Positions 1 through 11,074 of a DNA stretch of 64,000 bases are shown here, piece after piece. The stretch comes from Chloroflexota bacterium (GTDB taxonomy: Bacteria > Chloroflexota > Limnocylindria > Limnocylindrales > CSP1-4): the NCBI GenBank assembly GCA_021802825.1, contig JAJZRG010000005.1, positions 62,001 to 126,000 of the forward strand. Direction: 5' to 3'. A program made the translations under genes and the position numbers. A model generated the notes under the pieces. It did not search any database and was not told the DNA's origin. It saw only the letters and a list, made by a program, of their open reading frames with translations. Each line of letters starts with the position of its first letter. The stretch's first letter is position 1.

Positions 1-332
1 GCGGCGCGCGTGTTGCCGATCGCCTCTTTGACCAGAGCCGCCGTCGAGGGCATCCAGTAGTCCGGGCTGAGGGTCGCGACGACGATCACGTCGATGTCGT
101 CGGGGTCGAGCCCGGCCGTGCGGATGGCGCGCAGCCCGGCAACCGCGCCCATCGAGGCGCTCGTCTCATGGGCAGCGGCGACCCGGCGCTCGCGGATGCC
201 GGTGCGGCTGACGATCCACTCGTCCGAGGTGTCGACCATGCGCTCGAGGTCGGCGTTGGTGAGCACCTGTGCTGGTGCATAGCGGCCCCAGCCGGTGATG
301 CGGACCGAGCGGGGGGACGCGACGGGGGTCAT
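1..332 (-). CDS. fabH: 3-oxoacyl-ACP synthase III (KAS III), N-terminal part
   Basis: The gene runs off the left edge, so only about the first 110 residues are visible. They carry the hallmark KAS III start: Y-x-P-x-x-VLTN-x-DLE-x-x-VDTSDEWI-x-x-RTGI-x-ERR, followed by the first thiolase-fold strand ending IDVIVVATLSPD. FabH condenses acetyl-CoA (or a branched primer) with malonyl-ACP to start fatty-acid synthesis. The catalytic Cys/His/Asn lie outside the window. The ATG overlaps the accB stop as ATGA, so it is probably translated together with the malonyl-CoA and FAS-II genes upstream. Confidence 0.95.
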   Translation of the reverse strand, partial: MTPVASPRSVRITGWGRYAPAQVLTNADLERMVDTSDEWIVSRTGIRERRVAAAHETSASMGAVAGLRAIRTAGLDPDDIDVIVVATLSPDYWMPSTAALVKEAIGNTRA

Positions 333-1057
333 GCGGGCTCAACCTCGATCAGCGGTGACTTGGCCTTCACGAGCTGGCCGTTGTCGGCGCAGATGCGCAC
401 CACCTTGCCGGCAAGGTCGCTCTTGATCTCGTTGAACAGCTTCATCGCCTCGATCAGGCCGATGATCTGGCCCACCGAGACGTGGTCGCCGACGGACACG
501 TACGGCGTGGCGCCCGGCGACGGGGCGCCGTAGAAGATTCCGGTGAGCGGCGCCTTGACAGACGGCCGGACCGGGGGCGCGACCGGCGATGCCACCGGGG
601 GGCTCGTCAGGGCGACTGGCGAGCCCGCCGCCGTGCCGCCATCCGCGGGCGCCACAAGCCCAGGCGCCGCCACGACCCGCTCGACCGCGGCCGGCGAGCG
701 GACAATGATCGTGGTCTCGCCGGCGCTCACCTCGAGCTCGGCGAGCTCGTTCCGCTCCAGGATGGCCGCCAGGCGGTCCACGAGGCTCAGCAGCGCGGCG
801 TCGCCGGCATCGCTCGGGGCGGGCGCGCCCGGCGCCTCGCCCTGGCTCGACATCAGGTCGCCGTCGCGGGGCCGCGAGCGGCCGCCCGCCGTGGACGTCG
901 AGGGGGCCGGCCGGGACGGGTCGCCGGGGCCGACGGGGACCGCGTCGGCGAGGCGCCCCTTGCGGTCCTCGCCGTCCGTGGTCTTGGCGGGGGCGGGATC
1001 GGCGTGGGGCGGCGCGCCGGGGTCGGTGCCACCCGGGAGGGCGCGCTCGTCGCTCAT
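329..1057 (-). CDS. accB: Biotin carboxyl carrier protein of acetyl-CoA carboxylase
   Basis: The product is 242 residues. It has a long Pro/Ala/Gly-rich N-terminal region, a region with a BCCP-like helix (about 85-120) and a C-terminal biotinyl domain (about 165-242) containing E-A-M-K-L-F-N-E; Lys206 is the predicted biotinylation site. It carries CO2 from AccC to the AccA/AccD transferase. I start it at the ATG that overlaps the fabF stop (ATGA); the open frame continues upstream only as a shadow of fabF. A downstream ATG at residue 69 is an alternative. A second BCCP-like gene at 5167-5727 lacks this lysine, so this one should be the working carrier. Confidence 0.9.
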   Translation of the reverse strand: MSDERALPGGTDPGAPPHADPAPAKTTDGEDRKGRLADAVPVGPGDPSRPAPSTSTAGGRSRPRDGDLMSSQGEAPGAPAPSDAGDAALLSLVDRLAAILERNELAELEVSAGETTIIVRSPAAVERVVAAPGLVAPADGGTAAGSPVALTSPPVASPVAPPVRPSVKAPLTGIFYGAPSPGATPYVSVGDHVSVGQIIGLIEAMKLFNEIKSDLAGKVVRICADNGQLVKAKSPLIEVEPA

Positions 1058-2325
1058 GCGTCCCACCTTCGGAAGACCAGCGCCGTGTTCTGGCCACCGA
1101 ACCCGAACGAGTTCGACAATGCCACGCGCGGGTCCCGCTTCGTTGCCACCTTGGGCGTGAGGTCCATGCCCGCCGCCGCCTCGTCCGGGTCGTCGAGGTT
1201 GATGGTGGGCGGCACGATCCCCGTCCGGAGCGTCAGGATAGTGACGATCGCCTCCACGGCTCCCGCCGCGCCCAGGGTGTGGCCGAGCATCGACTTGTTG
1301 GCGGTCACCGACACGTTCCGGGCATGGTCGCCCAGGATCGTGCGGATCGCCGCCAGCTCCGCCTTGTCGCCCTCCGCCGTGGACGTGGCGTGGGCGTTGA
1401 CGTGGTCCACCTCGGACGGGTCGAGGCCCGCCTTGTCGAGCGCCCGTCGCGCGGCCCGGACCGCGCCGATGCCGCCCGGCGCCGGCAGCGTGATGTGCGA
1501 GGCGTCCGCTGTGGCCCCGTAGCCGACGAGCTCCGCGAGCGGGGCGGCGCCGCGCGCCTGAGCATGCTCGAGCGCCTCGAGTACCAGCACGCCGCACCCC
1601 TCGCCCACCACGAAGCCGTCGCGCGCTCTGTCGAACGGGCGCGACGCAGCGGCCGGGTCGTCATTGCGCGTGGACAGCGCCTTCATCGACGCGAAGCCGC
1701 CGATCGTCGCCTCGTGGATCCCCGCCTCGACGCCGCCCGCGAGCATGACGTCCGCGTCGCCGCGCCGAATGGTCTCCCACGCCTCGCCCACCGCATGGCC
1801 GCCCGTGGCGCAGGCCGACACGGTGGAGAAGTTGGGGCCGATGGCGCCAGTCGCGATCGCGACCTGCCCGGCGCCCACGTTGCCGATGCCCATGGGGATG
1901 AAGAACGGCGAGATCCGGTCGGGGCCGCGCTGGCCCATGAGCAGCACGTTGTCGAACAGCGTCTGCACGCCGCCCATGCCCGAGCCCAGGATGACGCCCG
2001 TGCGGGCTGCGAGGTCGCCCTCGAACCGCTCGGGCAGGCCGGCGTCGCAGACCGCCTGGTGGGCGGTCCACAGCGCGAACTGGATGTAGCGGTCGGTGCG
2101 GCGGATCTCCTTGCGGTCGAGGACCGAGGAGGGGTCGAACCCCTTCGCCTCGGCCGCGAACCGGACGCTGAGGCGCGACGGGTCGAACGCCTGGACCGGC
2201 GCCACGCCGGAGCGGCCGGCGACGAGCCCGTCCCAGGTCGTGGGCACGTCGTTGCCGAGGGCGGTGATGGCGCCCATCCCCGTCACCACCACGCGCCGGG
2301 GCCGCTCGGGCCAGCTCCAGCTCAT
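1054..2325 (-). CDS. fabF: 3-oxoacyl-ACP synthase II (KAS II)
   Basis: The product is 423 residues, a normal KAS II length. The Cys-His-His triad is visible: Cys172 in STVSACATGGH, His312 in NAHATSTAEGD and His349 in NKSMLGHTLGAAG, and the C-terminus has the NSFGFGGQN motif. It elongates acyl-ACP with malonyl-ACP. The start is fixed by an ATGA overlap with the preceding phosphoesterase gene, and the stop overlaps accB in the same way, so MPP-fabF-accB-fabH reads as one translationally coupled string. Confidence 0.96.
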   Translation of the reverse strand: MSWSWPERPRRVVVTGMGAITALGNDVPTTWDGLVAGRSGVAPVQAFDPSRLSVRFAAEAKGFDPSSVLDRKEIRRTDRYIQFALWTAHQAVCDAGLPERFEGDLAARTGVILGSGMGGVQTLFDNVLLMGQRGPDRISPFFIPMGIGNVGAGQVAIATGAIGPNFSTVSACATGGHAVGEAWETIRRGDADVMLAGGVEAGIHEATIGGFASMKALSTRNDDPAAASRPFDRARDGFVVGEGCGVLVLEALEHAQARGAAPLAELVGYGATADASHITLPAPGGIGAVRAARRALDKAGLDPSEVDHVNAHATSTAEGDKAELAAIRTILGDHARNVSVTANKSMLGHTLGAAGAVEAIVTILTLRTGIVPPTINLDDPDEAAAGMDLTPKVATKRDPRVALSNSFGFGGQNTALVFRRWDA

Positions 2326-3068
2326 CGGACCAGCTTCCCCGTGCGCACGGTGGCTGCCCGGTACACATCCCCCGGCAGCCCGCGCGCCGAGATGGCGCTG
2401 GCAACCGACAGCGCGTCGAACGGTGTCCGGCGGATCACCACGTCCACCTCGCCGTTGGCGATCGTCGCCATCGCCCAGCTCGCGGTCGGGTCGCCGTCGA
2501 ACACGTAGCCGCACGACCCGTCGTTGACGATGACCTTCCAGCCGAGGTCGCGGACCTCGGGGATGTGCGTGTGGCCCACGCAGATGACCCGGGCGTCGGT
2601 GCCGGCGGCGCGCTCGTAGATCACCGACGCGTCGAGCGCCTGGTCGAAGCCGCGGGTCTGGGACCCCGGCGACGCGTGGACCAGCAGCACCAGCGTGTCG
2701 TCGGCGGTGCGCATCCGGCGCTCGGACGGGAGGCGCCGCAGCCAGTCCAGCTGGCCGTCGCCCAGCTCGTCGTGCGCCCACTCGGCGGCGGCGGTGATCA
2801 CCTCGGGCACGCCGTCCTGGTACTGCGGATAGGCGGCGCCGTAGTCGAAGTCGCCCACCGCGATGTCGGTGTTGCCGGACACGATCAGCGCCCCCTCCGA
2901 CTCGAGCAGGCGCAGCGCGTCCACGCAGCCGTTGGGGTCGGGGCCGTTGAGGACGAGGTCACCGGCGACCAGCACGGCGTCGGGCTTCTCGCGGCGGATC
3001 TCTGCGGCGACCGTCTCGAGGGCGGCGAGGTTGCCGTGGATGTCCGAGAGGACGGCGATGCGGGTCAT
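2322..3068 (-). CDS. Calcineurin-like metallophosphoesterase
   Basis: The 248-residue product has the metallophosphoesterase metal-binding series: SDIHGN near residue 8, GDLVLNG, SGNTD, VHASPG and GHTHIPEV. The family (YfcE/MPP-like) hydrolyses small phosphodiesters or phosphomonoesters with two metal ions; the substrate cannot be read from sequence. A GGAG Shine-Dalgarno lies about 7 bases before the ATG, and the stop overlaps fabF (ATGA). Its position between fabZ and fabF is unusual and may mean only shared expression. Confidence 0.85.
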   Translation of the reverse strand: MTRIAVLSDIHGNLAALETVAAEIRREKPDAVLVAGDLVLNGPDPNGCVDALRLLESEGALIVSGNTDIAVGDFDYGAAYPQYQDGVPEVITAAAEWAHDELGDGQLDWLRRLPSERRMRTADDTLVLLVHASPGSQTRGFDQALDASVIYERAAGTDARVICVGHTHIPEVRDLGWKVIVNDGSCGYVFDGDPTASWAMATIANGEVDVVIRRTPFDALSVASAISARGLPGDVYRAATVRTGKLVR

Positions 3069-3186
3069 CGGGGAGCTCCAGGGCCCTGCGAGGGCGGCAC
3101 AGCGCATGGCGGGGACGAGCACGCGAGCGAGCGCACTTGAGCGCGCGTGAGCGAGCGCGCGGAGGCGACAACGTGGCAATGGGCCG

Positions 3187-3681
3187 TCATCGGAGGGCCC
3201 CCGCCGGCGGGATGACGAACGAGAGCAGGCCCTCGCAGGCCACCTCGCCGTTCACGCTCGCGACCGCACGGCCCTTGCCGAACCGGCTGCCCAGCCTGTC
3301 CATCATGACCTCGAGGCGGAGCGTGTCGCCGGGCACCACGATGCGCTTGAAGCGGACCTCGTCGATCCCGGCGAACAGCCCCATCCGATCGCCGAAGCCG
3401 GGCTGCTTGGCCACGTAGACCGCCATCGTCTGGGCGAGCGCCTCCACCTGGAGCACGCCGGGCATCACCGGCAGGCCCGGGAAGTGGCCCTGGAAGAACC
3501 ACTCCGTGGCGGTGACGGCCTTGATGCCCACGATCCGCTTGGCGTCCGGGTCGTACTCCACGATTCGGTCCACCAGCAGGAACGGCCACCGGTGCGGGAT
3601 CAGCGATTCGATCTCGCGCGTGGTGTGGACGGTCCCGGGCGTGGCCGGGACGGCGGCAGACGGGGTGGCTTGGTCGGTCAC
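3187..3681 (-). CDS. fabZ: 3-hydroxyacyl-ACP dehydratase
   Basis: The 164-residue hot-dog-fold protein has HRWPFLLVDRI and GHFPGLPVMPGVLQVEALAQ, giving the catalytic His and Glu of FabZ. It dehydrates 3-hydroxyacyl-ACP in FAS II. I choose a GTG start preceded by CAGGAG about 9 bases upstream, which places the first conserved motif about 25 residues in, as usual; the longer upstream frame has no homologous content. It sits between accC (115-base gap) and the phosphoesterase (118-base gap), so it may have its own promoter. Confidence 0.94.
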   Translation of the reverse strand: MTDQATPSAAVPATPGTVHTTREIESLIPHRWPFLLVDRIVEYDPDAKRIVGIKAVTATEWFFQGHFPGLPVMPGVLQVEALAQTMAVYVAKQPGFGDRMGLFAGIDEVRFKRIVVPGDTLRLEVMMDRLGSRFGKGRAVASVNGEVACEGLLSFVIPPAGALR

Positions 3682-3796: not shown

Positions 3797-5164
<1,368 letters not shown>

Positions 5165-5166
5165 GC

Positions 5167-5727
5167 TCAGCCCTCCGCCGCCCCATCGGCGCCCGCCGCA
5201 TTGGCATCCGGCTCGGGGTCGGCCTCGACGAGCGCGATCTCCTCGCCGTACTCCACCCCGTCGCCCGGCTGGGGGTAGACCTCGACCACGGTGCCGTCGA
5301 TCGGGGCCACCACGTCGAGCGCGATGCCCAGCAGGTCGACGCTCGCGATCCGGTCGCCGGCCCGCACGCGCGTTCCCGGGGCGAGGCCCGGCTTGAACAT
5401 GCCCACGGTTGGCGAGAGGGCGGGCTCTTGGCGCGGGCCGTCGGCTGCGGCCTCGTCGGTGACCGGCGGCGCGGGGAGCGAGGCGCCGGGCGGGGCGACG
5501 ATGGGAAGCGACGCCCGGTGCGGGCGCTCGCGGCGGGGGCCGGCGCCGGCCGGGCGGCGGACGCGAATGTGCCAGTCACCCTCGCGGATCTCCACCTCGC
5601 CGAGGTTTGCGGTGGCGAGCTTCACGACGAGCGCGGGCACGAGCGCGTCGGCGAGGCGGGCGATGCCGGCGTGGTCTGCGACGCGTTGGGCGGCGTTGCG
5701 GTCCCCGGGGTGGGGCTGGTCAGGCAT
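5167..5727 (-). CDS. BCCP-like biotinyl-domain protein lacking the biotinylation lysine
   Basis: The 186-residue product has a BCCP-like middle (about residues 25-58, GDWHIRVRRP) and a C-terminal lipoyl/biotinyl-type domain from SPTVGMF (about 106) to residue 169. Where BCCP has V/I-E-A-M-K-L/M this protein has V-D-L-L-G-I, so Gly134 replaces the biotin-accepting Lys and the whole EAMK motif is gone. The fold signature (G-T-x-V-x-A-G-D-x-I and I-D-G-T-V-V-E-V) is kept. It is placed exactly where accB normally precedes accC, between accA (3-base gap) and accC (2-base gap). I infer a structural or regulatory paralogue in the carboxylase complex; a decaying gene is less likely given clean coding and spacing. 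Confidence 0.8.
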   Translation of the reverse strand: MPDQPHPGDRNAAQRVADHAGIARLADALVPALVVKLATANLGEVEIREGDWHIRVRRPAGAGPRRERPHRASLPIVAPPGASLPAPPVTDEAAADGPRQEPALSPTVGMFKPGLAPGTRVRAGDRIASVDLLGIALDVVAPIDGTVVEVYPQPGDGVEYGEEIALVEADPEPDANAAGADGAAEG

Positions 5728-5730
5728 CGG

Positions 5731-6765
5731 CTAGACGTCCTCGCGGGCGGGTGGCTCGTCGCGCCGGCCCACCTGAAGCGGCGCGGGAATGGCCCGCGAA
5801 CCGGCCTCGAAAAGACCGCGAAGGCGGTCGGCGAAACCAGTGCGGGGCGGGGCGATGGGCGCAGGCGCCTCGGTGACGACCTCGGTGTATGCGCCGAGCG
5901 AACGGTACCGCCGGTAGCGCTGCTCGACCAGCAGGTCGACGGGGATCGCCGCCAGGCGGTCCAGCTCCCGCACGATCGCGGCCTTCAGGCGCCTGCCGGT
6001 TTCCTCGTGGTCGAGGTGCGCGCCGCCCTCGGGCTCGGGGACCACGTGGTCGATGACGCCCAGCGCCAGCTGCTCGTTCGCCGTCATCCGCATCGCGAGC
6101 GCGGCCGTCGCCGCCTCGTCCACGGTCCGCCACAGGATGCTCGCGCAGCCCTCGGGCGTGATGACCGAGTACACGGCGTTCTCGAGTGCCAGGACCACGT
6201 CGCCCACTGCGATCGCCAGGGCGCCACCCGAGCCGCCCTCGCCCGTGATGACCGCGACGATCGGCGTCCGCAGGCGGGTCATCAGCCCCACGGACCGGGC
6301 GATCGCCTCGGCAATGCCGCGCTCCTCGGATTCGGCGCCCGGATGGGCGCCCGGGACGTCCACGAAGGTGACGACCGGGAGGCTGCACCGCTCGGCGAGC
6401 TCCATGACGCGCATCGCCTTGCGATAGCCCTCGGGATGCGGCATCCCGAAGTTGCGCCGCACGTTTTCCTCCGTGTCAGCGCCCTTCTGCTGCCCGACCA
6501 CGGCGACCCGGTGCCCATCGATCCGGGCAAAGCCTGCGACGATCGCGCCGTCGTCACCGAACAGCCGATCGCCGTGGAGCTCGACGACCTCGTCGGCCAT
6601 GATGCCGAGCAGCTCGAGCGTCCGCGGTCGGCGGAGGTTGCGGGCCAGCTGGACTCGCGCCCAGACCTCGGCCTTGCGGTCGACCGGCGTCGACTCGACG
6701 GTAGGCTCCGACGGAGCCTCGGCCGGCGGCTGGGCCTCGCGGCGACCCAGGATGCGGTCAACCAC
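5731..6765 (-). CDS. accA: Acetyl-CoA carboxylase carboxyltransferase subunit alpha
   Basis: The 344-residue product matches AccA: RPRTLELL, LHGDRLFGDD, QQKGADTEEN, RNFGMPHPEGYRKA, DVPGAHPG, and the oxyanion-type GEGGSGGALAI. With AccD it moves the carboxyl group from biotin to acetyl-CoA, making malonyl-CoA. The start is a GTG that overlaps the accD stop by 8 bases; the first residues MVDRILGRREA are typical of a short disordered leader. Confidence 0.95.
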   Translation of the reverse strand: MVDRILGRREAQPPAEAPSEPTVESTPVDRKAEVWARVQLARNLRRPRTLELLGIMADEVVELHGDRLFGDDGAIVAGFARIDGHRVAVVGQQKGADTEENVRRNFGMPHPEGYRKAMRVMELAERCSLPVVTFVDVPGAHPGAESEERGIAEAIARSVGLMTRLRTPIVAVITGEGGSGGALAIAVGDVVLALENAVYSVITPEGCASILWRTVDEAATAALAMRMTANEQLALGVIDHVVPEPEGGAHLDHEETGRRLKAAIVRELDRLAAIPVDLLVEQRYRRYRSLGAYTEVVTEAPAPIAPPRTGFADRLRGLFEAGSRAIPAPLQVGRRDEPPAREDV

Positions 6766-7609
6766 GCGCGGGCTCCGGCTGGCCGGGAACGAGGTAGCGG
6801 AGCAGCAGGGCGAGCTCGCGGCGGAGGTCCACTCGGGCGACGATGCGGTCCACGAAGCCGTGGCGCAACAGGAACTCCGCGCGCTGGAACCCCGGCGGCA
6901 GCTCCTGGCCTATGGTGCCGGCGCCCACTCTGGCCCCCGCGAAGCCGATCAGCGCGTTGGGTTCCGCGAGGTTGACGTCGCCCATGGCCGCGAAGCTGGC
7001 GAACACGCCGCCCGTGGTGGGGTCGCTCATCACGGACACGTACGGGACATGGGCGGCGCGCAGGCGCTCCAGGGCCGCCATCGTCTTCGCCAGCTGCATG
7101 AGCGCGATCGTCCCCTCCTGCATCCGCGCCCCACCCGAGGCCGAGACGATGATCAGCGGCACCCGCGAGGCCAGCGCGCCCTCGGCGGCCCGGGCCACCT
7201 TCTCGCCCACGACGGCGCCCATCGACCCGCCCATGAACCCGAAATCCATGACCAGGATCGCCACGCGCTGCTCCTCGATGCGCCCGAAGCCCCAGACCGC
7301 GGCGTCGCGCATCCCGGTGGCCAGCTGGGCCGCGGCGAGGCGGTCGGGGTAGGTCTTCTGGTCCACAAAGCCGAGCATGTCCTGCGCGGCGAGGCCTGGA
7401 TCCCGCTCCTCGAACGAGCCCGGGTCCAGCAGGAGCCCGAGCCGCAGCGCGGACGAGAGCCGGAAGTGGTGGCCGCAGGACGGGCAGACGTGGAGCGTCT
7501 TCTCGAGCGCCTTGTTGAACAGCTGCTCCGAGCACGACGGGCAGCGCGTCCAGAGCTTGTCGGGGACGGCCTCGCGACGGGATCGAAAGCCCGGGAACTT
7601 CACCGGCAT
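6758..7609 (-). CDS. accD: Acetyl-CoA carboxylase carboxyltransferase subunit beta
   Basis: The 283-residue product has the AccD N-terminal zinc finger C-P-S-C-x17-C-P-S-C-G followed by the crotonase-like transferase core (FGFMGGSMGAVVGEK, SASGGARMQEG, PTTGGVFASFA). I use the ATG in a TGATG overlap with the preceding membrane-protein gene; the frame is open upstream but that part is shadow sequence. It forms the transferase half with AccA, encoded directly downstream. Confidence 0.95.
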   Translation of the reverse strand: MPVKFPGFRSRREAVPDKLWTRCPSCSEQLFNKALEKTLHVCPSCGHHFRLSSALRLGLLLDPGSFEERDPGLAAQDMLGFVDQKTYPDRLAAAQLATGMRDAAVWGFGRIEEQRVAILVMDFGFMGGSMGAVVGEKVARAAEGALASRVPLIIVSASGGARMQEGTIALMQLAKTMAALERLRAAHVPYVSVMSDPTTGGVFASFAAMGDVNLAEPNALIGFAGARVGAGTIGQELPPGFQRAEFLLRHGFVDRIVARVDLRRELALLLRYLVPGQPEPARG

Positions 7610-8247
7610 CAGCCCGTCCCTCCGGGCACGCCGGCGGCGAGGTCCGCGATGCGGCGGGCGTGGGCGGCTCGCGCGGCGCGGCCCATGCGGGCCCCGCTCG
7701 GGCGGGAGGCACGCCACGCGACCCAGGCGACACCGACGAGCGAGATGGCGGCGGAGGTGATCGCCCCGCCCACCAGGAGCGGCCGCGCCGGCGAGCGGAC
7801 GCTCCTGGTGCGATCGACGGCGGCCTCGTCGGACGGGTCGAGCCGGCCCGCCAGGACGGCGACAAGCAGCGGGTCCGTGCTCGGCGAGGCGGTGGCGACG
7901 GGGAACGGGACGACGTCGGTGGAGGGGCCGGCGCTGGCCACGGACCCCCGCGACTGGCCCGCGGCAAGGTCGGCCAGCTGGGCGGCCAGCCGCTCCTCGA
8001 AGCGGAACGACGGGTGGGCGCGGAGGAGCGTCGCCCGCAGGACAGCCGCGCCGTGGCGCACGGCCGGATCGATCGCGCGGGCACCGGCGAGGTCTTCGGC
8101 GTCGGGCGCAGGCGCGCCGTCAGCGGTCCTCCTGGCTGCCGAGTCCGCCGCGCGCTCCGCCTGCGCGAGCAACCCGTCGAGGTACTGGTCTGTGGCCAGC
8201 GCGTCCCCCGTGACACCACCCTCCGCGGGTGCCCGCATCAGCCTCAC
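7609..8247 (-). CDS. Single-pass membrane protein, candidate anti-sigma factor
   Basis: The 212-residue protein has a mostly helical, Ala/Arg-rich N-terminal half (HPSFRFEERLAAQLADL near residues 78-94), a Pro/Ser/Thr stretch and one predicted membrane helix (about 156-178) near the C-terminus. I recognise no named family and no HxxxCxxC zinc anti-sigma motif. The GTG start overlaps the stop of the ECF sigma gene (GTGA), the usual arrangement of a sigma factor with its membrane-anchored regulator, so an anti-sigma role is inferred from position only. Confidence 0.6.
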   Translation of the reverse strand: MRLMRAPAEGGVTGDALATDQYLDGLLAQAERAADSAARRTADGAPAPDAEDLAGARAIDPAVRHGAAVLRATLLRAHPSFRFEERLAAQLADLAAGQSRGSVASAGPSTDVVPFPVATASPSTDPLLVAVLAGRLDPSDEAAVDRTRSVRSPARPLLVGGAITSAAISLVGVAWVAWRASRPSGARMGRAARAAHARRIADLAAGVPGGTG

Positions 8248-8885
8248 CGGCGCGACCCGCGGTCGTGGCCCAGTTCGTGCGCGACGCTGCCCAGCGCGCG
8301 GTGGATCAGCACCCGGACGGCGCCCTCGGAGCGGCCCAGGATGCCCGCGATCTCGGCCGTGCTCATCTCGTCCACGAACCGCAGCAGGAGTGCCCGCCGA
8401 CGGTCGTCCGGGAGGTCGCCGACCGCTCGCAGGACGGTGGCGGCCTCGTCCCGGGTCACGGCGTCGCCCTCGAGGTCCACGCCGTCCGCGATGGTCAGCC
8501 CGGCGCCCAGCACCGCGTCGAGCGAGGAGGCTGGCCGGCGCCGGCGCGAGCGCCGCTCGTTGGCGACGACGTTGCGCGCGATGCGGAACAGCCAGACGCG
8601 GAACGTGCTCGCGTCGGGGCCGTCCTCGGGCCGGGCGAGCTCGCGGAAGCGAGTCAGACCCGCCAGCGCGCGGAGGAAGGTCCGCTCCGTGGCGTCCTCG
8701 GCCGCGTGGTGGTCGGCGAGCTCGTAGAGGGCGTAGCTGTACACCTGGGCGAGGTACTTCCGGTAGAGCGCGTCGAACTTGGCGGGGTCCCGGCGCGCCG
8801 CCTCGACGAGCGGCCGGTCACGGTCGAGCGCGACGACGACGCGCTCCGCCGCCGGCTCGGCTGTTCCAAACCCCAGTCGGGCCAT
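8244..8885 (-). CDS. ECF-type RNA polymerase sigma factor
   Basis: The 213-residue product has sigma region 2 (FDALYRKYLAQVYSYALYEL, with D-A-T-E-R-T-F) and region 4 (LPDDRRRALLLRF, then MSTAEIAGILGRSEGAVRVLIHRAL, a helix-turn-helix). Between them lies a basic segment NERRSRRRR. It should direct polymerase to alternative promoters. It begins 4 bases after the birA stop and overlaps its likely membrane partner. Lying inside a lysC-birA-acc gene string, it may tie envelope or lipid stress to malonyl-CoA supply. Confidence 0.9.
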   Translation of the reverse strand: MARLGFGTAEPAAERVVVALDRDRPLVEAARRDPAKFDALYRKYLAQVYSYALYELADHHAAEDATERTFLRALAGLTRFRELARPEDGPDASTFRVWLFRIARNVVANERRSRRRRPASSLDAVLGAGLTIADGVDLEGDAVTRDEAATVLRAVGDLPDDRRRALLLRFVDEMSTAEIAGILGRSEGAVRVLIHRALGSVAHELGHDRGSRR

Positions 8886-8889
8886 CTCG

Positions 8890-9771
8890 TTACACCCCCA
8901 CGGCGAGCCGCACGCGGACGACCTCGCCCGCGTGGACCAGATGCGCGTCGCCGCTGCCGAGCGGGGTCACCGCGAGGGCCCCGCTGCTCGCGTCTACGCC
9001 GTCGACCGTCGCGTCCTCGTCGGCGCGCCCGCCGTGACCCTCCAGCCGGACCACGCGCCCGGTCAGGGCCTGCCGTGCCGTCCAGGTCGCGATGTCGAAG
9101 AACCCGGCGCGCAGCGCATCGAGCCGGGCCTCGAGATAGCCCAGGAACGCCGTGAGCAGCGCCTCGCGATCGATCGGCCGCCCGGCGGAGGCTTCGCGCA
9201 GGCTGGTCATCGTCGCGGCCAGCTCCGGCGGGAAGTCGGCGGCCGCCCAATCCGCGTTAATGCCGATGCCGACGACCGCACGGGGATCGGCCGTGCCCAG
9301 GCCGTCGGTCTCGCCCAGGACGCCGGCGAGCTTGCGCAGTTCGAGCGGCGCGGCCAGTCGGGCGGCGGCCTCGTGGGCAGACATGACGCCGGTCAGCAGC
9401 GCGTGCGGTCCGGCCAGCTCCACCACGAGGTCGTTGGGCCACTTGAGCCGGATCGCGCCCTCGGGCAGCCCGGCGACCTCCTCGGCGGCATCGCACATCG
9501 CCAGGGAGACCGCCGCGGCCAGTCGCCACGCGCGGTCCGGCGGCAGCCAGGTGGGGCGGAAGCCGCACGACAGCATCAGCGAGGCGCCGGGTGGCGACAC
9601 CCAGGCTCGACCGGCGCGGCCACGACCAGCCGTCTGCTCGCGCGCAACCGCGACGGCGACCTCAGGCGTGCCATCGGCCATCCAGCGGCGGACGACGTCG
9701 TTCGTGGACCCGATTGCGTCGAACCGCTCGAGTCTGCTGAACGCGGAGGTGGTCGGCTCGGACCCCGTCAC
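8890..9771 (-). CDS. birA: Biotin-[acetyl-CoA-carboxylase] ligase
   Basis: The 293-residue product has the class II biotin ligase core: DAIGSTNDVVRRW, TAGRGRAGRAWVSPPGASL (biotinyl-AMP loop), LKWPNDLVV and KLAGVLGE, then an SH3-like C-terminal domain. There is no N-terminal winged helix, so this is a monofunctional ligase and not a repressor of biotin genes. It biotinylates AccB encoded about 8 kb downstream in the same gene string. The GTG start lies 4 bases after the lysC stop; an upstream in-frame extension overlaps lysC and has no family content. Confidence 0.93.
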   Translation of the reverse strand: MTGSEPTTSAFSRLERFDAIGSTNDVVRRWMADGTPEVAVAVAREQTAGRGRAGRAWVSPPGASLMLSCGFRPTWLPPDRAWRLAAAVSLAMCDAAEEVAGLPEGAIRLKWPNDLVVELAGPHALLTGVMSAHEAAARLAAPLELRKLAGVLGETDGLGTADPRAVVGIGINADWAAADFPPELAATMTSLREASAGRPIDREALLTAFLGYLEARLDALRAGFFDIATWTARQALTGRVVRLEGHGGRADEDATVDGVDASSGALAVTPLGSGDAHLVHAGEVVRVRLAVGV

Positions 9772-9775
9772 CGGG

Positions 9776-11074
9776 TCAGCCGGCCGCGGCCGCCTCGACG
9801 GCCTCGGGCTGCTCCAGCGCGAACGCAGCATGGAGGGCGCGGACCGCCTGCTCGACGCGATCCTCGGCGATGATCGTGGTGATGCGAATCTCGGAGGTGG
9901 AGATCATCTCGATGTTGATCCCCTCGTCCGCGAGCGTCCCGAACATCCGAGCCGCGTAGCCCGGGGCGTTCTGGATGCCAGCGCCCACGATCGACACCTT
10001 GGCCACCGAGCTGTCGGTGGTCATGTCGGCGAAGCCCAGGTCCCGGACGAGCGGCTCGAGGATGCGCTTGGCCTTGGCGAGCTCGACCCGCGGGATGGTG
10101 AACGAGATGTCCGTCGACCCGCCGTGGCCCACGTTCTGGACGATCATGTCCACGATGACGCCGGCGTCGGCCAGCGGCCCGAAGACATGGTTGGCCACAC
10201 CGGGCCGGTCGGGCACGCCGACGAGCGTGATCTTGGCGACGTTGCGGTCGTGGGCGAGACCCCGGACCTTGTTCCGCTGCTCCACGAGCGGGTCCTCCTT
10301 GATGAGCGTGCCGGGGGCGTCCTCGAACGAGCTGAGGACCTCGATGACGACGTCGTTGACCCAGCCCAGCTCCACGGCGCGCACCTGCATCACCTGGGCG
10401 CCCTGGTGGGCGAGCTCCATCATCTCCTCGTAGCCGATGACTCGCAGCTGGCGGGCGTCGGGGGTGATGCGCGGGTCCGCGGTGTAGATGCCCTTGACGT
10501 CGGTGAAGATCTGGCAGCGGTCGGCGCGCAGCTGGGCGGCGAGCGCGACGGCGGTGGTGTCTGAGCCGCCCCGCCCGAGCGTGGTGATCTCGGCCGCGTG
10601 GACGTCGCTCGCGGTGGCAGTGGCCTCGAGCGCGGCCACGCCCTTCGTGCTCATGCCCTGGAAGCCGGCAACGATCACGACCTTGCCCGCTGCGATCTCC
10701 GCGTTGACGCGTCGTGGGTCGATGCCGGCGATGCGCGCCTTGCCGTACCTGCCGTCCGTGGTGATGCCCGCCTGCGGGCCAGTCAGGCTGATGGCGGCGA
10801 CCCCGAGCGAGTGGAGGGCCATCGAGACCAGCGTGGCACTCTGGTGCTCACCCGTGGCGAGGAGCACGTCCAGCTCGCGAGGGTCTGGCTCATCGGTGAT
10901 GGCGGCGGCGAGGGCAAGGAGCTCGTCGGTCGTGTCGCCCATGGCGGACACGATGACGATGAGGTTCGATCCCGCTGCGCGCTCGCGCGCGATCCGCCTG
11001 GCGACGCGCTTGATGCGCTCGGCGCCCGCGACCGACGAGCCGCCGAACTTCATGACGACGAGAGGGGTGGACAT
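9776..11074 (-). CDS. lysC: Aspartate kinase
   Basis: The 432-residue product has the aspartokinase N-terminal motif VVMKFGGSSVA, the catalytic loop TTLGRGGSDTTAVALAA and FTDVKGIYTADPRI, then two ACT domains (about 270-345 and 350-420) for feedback control by lysine and/or threonine. It phosphorylates aspartate for the Lys/Thr/Met pathway. Between GFQGM and EITTLGRGG there is an insertion of roughly 14 residues (ALEATATASDVHAA) compared with familiar LysC proteins. hom and thrB, the later threonine-branch genes, lie 4.5 kb away. Confidence 0.95.
   Translation of the reverse strand: MSTPLVVMKFGGSSVAGAERIKRVARRIARERAAGSNLIVIVSAMGDTTDELLALAAAITDEPDPRELDVLLATGEHQSATLVSMALHSLGVAAISLTGPQAGITTDGRYGKARIAGIDPRRVNAEIAAGKVVIVAGFQGMSTKGVAALEATATASDVHAAEITTLGRGGSDTTAVALAAQLRADRCQIFTDVKGIYTADPRITPDARQLRVIGYEEMMELAHQGAQVMQVRAVELGWVNDVVIEVLSSFEDAPGTLIKEDPLVEQRNKVRGLAHDRNVAKITLVGVPDRPGVANHVFGPLADAGVIVDMIVQNVGHGGSTDISFTIPRVELAKAKRILEPLVRDLGFADMTTDSSVAKVSIVGAGIQNAPGYAARMFGTLADEGINIEMISTSEIRITTIIAEDRVEQAVRALHAAFALEQPEAVEAAAAG

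Follow-up and report, generated by a model that had tools for sequence, protein, structure and literature searches.

The window, which is the whole 64,000-nucleotide stretch of Chloroflexota DNA that was analysed, carries on its minus strand, in order, birA, an ECF sigma factor gene, an ORF, accD, accA, a gene termed X here, accC, fabZ, a metallophosphoesterase gene, fabF and accB:

8890..9831, minus strand: birA, biotin-protein ligase, upstream of the acc genes in the same direction (TIGR00121, above cut-off)
8244-8885, minus strand: ECF-type sigma factor, between birA and accD, same direction
7609-8247, minus strand: ORF without a Pfam match, between birA and accD, possibly a membrane partner of the ECF-type sigma factor
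6758..7717, minus strand: accD, carboxyltransferase beta (longest ORF; start likely internal)
5731..6765, minus strand: accA, carboxyltransferase alpha (profile matches)
5167..5727, minus strand: X, lysine-less paralogue of the biotin carboxyl carrier protein (BCCP, AccB), 186 residues, ATG start (profile matches, alignment, AlphaFold model)
5557..5694, minus strand: N-terminal module of X, helix (residues 12-40) and beta-hairpin (44-57) (AlphaFold model, profile match to 4hr7)
5221..5430, minus strand: pseudo-biotinyl barrel domain of X, about residues 100-169, thumb loop missing (AlphaFold, Foldseek)
5326..5340, minus strand: motif V-D-L-L-G of X (residues 130-134), replacing I-E-A-M-K (alignment)
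5242..5256, minus strand: V-E-Y-G-E segment of X (residues 158-162) (alignment, tree rows)
3797..5164, minus strand: accC, biotin carboxylase
3187..3681, minus strand: fabZ (profile match)
2322..3179, minus strand: metallophosphoesterase, between fabZ and fabF (longest ORF; real start probably internal, near 3069)
1054..2325, minus strand: fabF (TIGR03150, above cut-off)
329..1057, minus strand: accB, biotinylatable BCCP with IEAMK and thumb, adjoining fabF (TIGR00531, 108 bits; alignment)

X lies 3 nt from accA, and accC starts 2 nt past its stop codon. Since accA, accC and accD are placed as the sequence-only reading of this DNA had implied, X fills the accB slot before accC.

The protein is laid out as an N-terminal helix and beta-hairpin, an Ala/Pro linker and a biotinyl-domain barrel. 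It reads A-S-V-D-L-L-G-I-A-L-D-V opposite L-I-E-A-M-K-L-F-N-E-I of AccB; the replacement of IEAMK by VDLLG can be read directly from the minus-strand ORF, and the retention of EAMK by accB at 329-1057, also noted in the sequence-only reading, holds as well. Translating 5167-5727 on the plus strand gives a meaningless sequence. The sole lysine of the barrel domain sits in MFKPG, outside the biotin hairpin. The proposed biotinyl fold pattern is borne out by a confident barrel prediction and by a Pfam Biotin_lipoyl match of 23.3 bits against a cut-off of 22.1. The TIGR00531 BCCP profile is matched over positions 9-155 of 156 (E=1.8e-9) at 38.3 bits, far under the model cut-off of 115.2 bits, although the EAMK accB of the window, at 108 bits, is also under this cut-off. 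Thus X has the biotinyl-domain fold and the N-terminal module of an AccB, but because it lacks the biotin-accepting lysine in the (E/A)MK hairpin that characterises AccB (TIGR00531), it is not a functional AccB. Such lysine-less genes are readily annotated as accB though they have no capacity for biotinylation.

In the AlphaFold model, the helix (12-40) and hairpin (44-57) are followed by a low-confidence linker and a barrel with a pLDDT of 97-98. The closest solved structures found by Foldseek are 1bdo (TMt 0.82) and 4hr7_G (TMt 0.84), at 24-25% identity; the AccB of the window is 38-39% identical to the same domains. The N-terminal module alone matches residues 26-56 of E. coli BCCP (4hr7, E=1.8e-6), and a search with the X profile picks up the Chloroflexus BC1 chain 8HZ4 as well (E=1.3e-10). 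In an AlphaFold model of the E. coli proteins, AccB Lys122 and the thumb contact BirA (PMC10863985). X has neither the lysine nor the thumb, so its biotinylation is very unlikely.

X is present in most of 100 relatives searched, including a sister family with genomes of about 1.1 Mb. Its sequence was read in families f1-f5 of the window's class, in 52 genomes by a hand-count of loci. Every sequence of the class that reaches the motif carries glycine in place of the lysine, as VD(V/M/L)LG, VEMLG or IQSLG, and L133 and G134 are invariant in an alignment of 26 sequences. The sequence-only reading had asked whether the lysine loss is conserved among homologues between accA and accC, and had named homologues keeping EAMK at this place as evidence against it: none in the class carries the lysine. 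The loss is real, and wider than could be seen from one sequence. Between congeners, dN/dS is 0.24-0.56 for X, 0.33-0.53 for the biotinylatable accB and 0.10-0.19 for accC; the X protein is under purifying selection. Independent homologues that read alike, together with the low dN/dS, rule out chance, a frameshift or an assembly error, and conservation in relatives and the same dN/dS values rule out a pseudogene.

The order accD-accA-X-accC-fabZ-fabF-accB(EAMK) is found in f1, f2 and f4 wherever gene order is visible, and, of the contigs of the class that are long enough to be informative, nearly all place X among the acc genes. The distance from X to accC is -4 to +8 nt in f1 and f2; the stop and start codons mostly overlap or nearly so, which suggests that the two genes are translationally coupled in these families. 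The separation is about 950 nt in most f4 genomes and 1.2 kb or more in f3 and f5. The gap of about 950 nt recurs in six f4 loci (L063-L067, L069), and in L063 it holds an ORF (7094-7741, minus strand) without a Pfam match. The f3 sequences have a shorter N-terminal module that aligned poorly. In one genome (G401; L133, L134) the acc/fab cluster is present twice, through either duplication or contamination, and each of the two clusters encodes both a lysine-less and an EAMK BCCP.

When 400 genomes of the phylum were scanned with the profile, strong matches to X were confined to the window's class, and a second tier of matches came from other groups. Among the 20 second-tier matches read, 10 keep EAMK and 10 are lysine-less; an eleventh lysine-less genome outside the class (G166, f24) has EVLN. 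Lysine-less BCCPs thus occur in at least six further Chloroflexota families (11 genomes), with the lysine changed to glycine or asparagine: EAMG (f73), DVLG (f14), ETLG/EVLG (f11), QSLN/EALN (f21), ETLN (f13) and EVLN (f24). Over 62 aligned lysine-less rows the position is glycine in 57, asparagine in 5 and nothing else. Ten of the 11 genomes outside the class were searched for a partner, and all ten have an EAMK or ETMK BCCP beside fabF. In ten genomes of families with a lysine-bearing efp-type BCCP, a second AccB, of the fabF-linked kind, was not seen. Two extra matches in f47 (G209; L178 and L187) were rejected as second AccBs: they lie next to genes of other carboxylases, a pyruvate carboxylase/OadA-type subunit (IEVMK) and a CT_C_D carboxyltransferase (VGVMK), and are therefore probably the carriers of those enzymes. 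No accC-like biotin carboxylase was found in one f11 genome that has both BCCPs (G106; L113, L147; 1.9 Mb, 88% complete). In the six families outside the class the lysine-less gene is away from accC, which limits the operon argument to the window's class.

The position of these outlying genes bears on the ancestry of X. The lysine-less gene lies directly after pepP-efp in f11, f14, f21, f24 and f73, and before xseA in f11 and f21; such neighbours were not found for the f13 gene (L124). Most single-copy families have an EAMK gene at this same pepP-efp-BCCP-xseA locus, which argues that it was the ancestral accB that lost its lysine. Most simply, the lysine-less gene is the old accB at its old address, the biotin job having passed to the fabF-side copy; the lysine-less gene of the window's class occupies the accA-accC slot instead of the efp locus. 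The fabF-linked lysine-bearing copies form one group in the tree (SH-aLRT 99). At least two changes of the lysine state are needed on the free tree; the test of a single origin for the lysine-less group gave p-AU 0.57 and did not reject it. These trees are short, were built quickly and have weak support at some points.

The features of the two copies have also been divided. Single-copy AccBs combine EAMK, the thumb and VEYG (or VEFG) in one protein. VEYG or VEFG is kept in 55 of 55 lysine-less tree rows, and VEYG is absent from all 44 rows of fabF-linked partners (two f47 outliers left out). A gap at the thumb is the rule in the window's class and is not the rule in f21, f13, f24 or f73, so the thumb was presumably lost after the lysine. 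X is probably the old accB lineage itself, with biotin held by its fabF-side partner throughout the phylum.

These findings point to a probable role of X in acetyl-CoA carboxylase, the first enzyme of fat synthesis: that of a conserved subunit without catalytic function which aids the assembly of AccC and works like the plant protein BADC. It would have arisen as follows. After duplication of accB, the fabF-linked copy would have kept the biotin lysine and the job of mobile carrier, and the old copy would have lost the lysine and been kept as a structural subunit, in the window's class losing also the thumb modelled to contact BirA. The helix and beta-hairpin of X may join AccB in one hetero-oligomer and help to tie AccC dimers together, with the pseudo-biotinyl barrel occupying a BCCP docking place on AccC or capping AccB. 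Through these predicted contacts X could govern how the BC-BCCP half assembles and how active it is, while CO2 would be carried by AccB alone.

The sequence-only reading had proposed that X is a paralogue with a structural or inhibitory function in the carboxylase complex; all the findings agree with this putative function. A chiefly inhibitory X, a rheostat that competes with biotinylated AccB for AccC and cuts carboxylase activity when AccB or biotin is limiting, would keep AccC occupied by default, in line with the shared fold, the missing lysine and the coupling to accC rather than to accB; plant BADC, too, was first described as a negative regulator (PMC11926652, PMC12873504). However, one would not expect a pure inhibitor to have inherited the position of the ancestral accB, nor to fill the accB slot across a class, and this reading appears rather unlikely, though inhibitory and structural roles are compatible. 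Co-conservation, tight coupling to accC and the conserved helix-hairpin module make the case lean towards a structural rather than purely inhibitory role.

It is improbable that X belongs to another process or carboxylase, for example as a carrier-like decarboxylase partner or a non-enzymatic binding domain, with its place in the acc cluster incidental. Biotinyl-like barrels do occur in unrelated proteins, and outside the class the gene follows pepP-efp, away from accC, accA and accD; but the efp locus is the very address of AccB in single-copy relatives, the protein is a full-length AccB homologue with an AccB-type N-terminal module, and nearly all sufficiently long contigs of the class have it among the acc genes. 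That the altered hairpin carries another covalent group, or binds a free cofactor, is very improbable: the Leu-Gly pair is invariant in the class, and the site is therefore under selection, but it offers no lysine or other usual acceptor, only the glycine or asparagine already described. The idea that X is a decaying accB duplicate without function, attractive only in that the defining residue and the thumb are gone, can practically be discarded, being refuted by the dN/dS values, by the invariant Leu-Gly and near-invariant VEYG across whole families, and by retention in the reduced f2 genomes of about 1.1 Mb.

The proposed assembly role may be set against several known systems. X shares its two-module layout and barrel fold with E. 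coli AccB (PDB 4hr7/1bdo), but is without the biotinylation lysine, the EAM motif and the thumb. The X profile matches the BCCP hairpin of Chloroflexus aurantiacus BC1 (8HZ4), an enzyme in which two biotin carboxylase dimers are joined by a barrel of four such hairpins; deletion of the hairpin gives dimers with lower activity, and deletion of the biotinyl core leaves the tetramer intact (PMC11077971). A BCCP hairpin is thus sufficient to tetramerise biotin carboxylase. There, in contrast to X, the hairpin and a biotinylated core are fused to the biotin carboxylase in one chain. A further likeness is to the non-catalytic 'glue' subunits (AccE-type) of bacterial acyl-CoA carboxylases. Such subunits have been cited as an analogy for BADC (PMC11926652); they and X, as proposed, are both non-catalytic assembly subunits, but they are not described in that source as BCCP paralogues.

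X resembles BADC itself, which also has a glycine at the lysine position. BADC and X are both BCCP homologues without the biotinylation motif, and in each case the organism has a heteromeric acetyl-CoA carboxylase and encodes a true BCCP as well; for the lysine-less bacterial proteins this coexistence holds in the window and in ten two-copy genomes. BADC, a BCCP-like protein without AMKL, was at first taken for an inhibitor and has since been described as the 'glue' of BC-BCCP (PMC11926652, PMC12873504); it has been called unique to the plant htACCase (PMC11926652). No bacterial BADC-like protein was found in the literature searched, which omits most subscription journals, and an approximate BADC fragment, run against the PDB, returned no BADC structure. 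Unlike BADC, X is bacterial, has its gene either within the acc operon or at the efp position, is without plant-like targeting and is probably the positional heir of the original accB; it is on bacterial contigs whose nearest named records are Chloroflexi MAGs. Thus X is proposed to work like BADC, with putative binding to BC and BCCP and at most a putative common descent, but is not classed as one, because the plant plastid-targeted origin is absent.

It seems fairly probable that a BADC-like two-BCCP acetyl-CoA carboxylase operates across a large part of the Chloroflexota, in which the ancestral AccB is now a permanent non-biotinylated structural subunit, the fabF-linked duplicate is the sole biotin carrier and single-copy relatives represent the state before the split. 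If X is such a structural subunit, a subunit type described as unique to plants also arose in bacteria, perhaps independently. The plant BADC genes are redundant, one double mutant is embryo-lethal, and whether their products are inhibitors or assembly factors is argued (PMC12873504). For an in vitro reconstitution of the bacterial system, which has a single BCCP with the lysine and a single one without, two to five subunits could suffice; some of its relatives combine both jobs in one protein. The division of features between the copies would also link EAMK and the thumb of a BCCP to biotin carrying, and the VEYG segment to the structural role that X is proposed to share with BADC.
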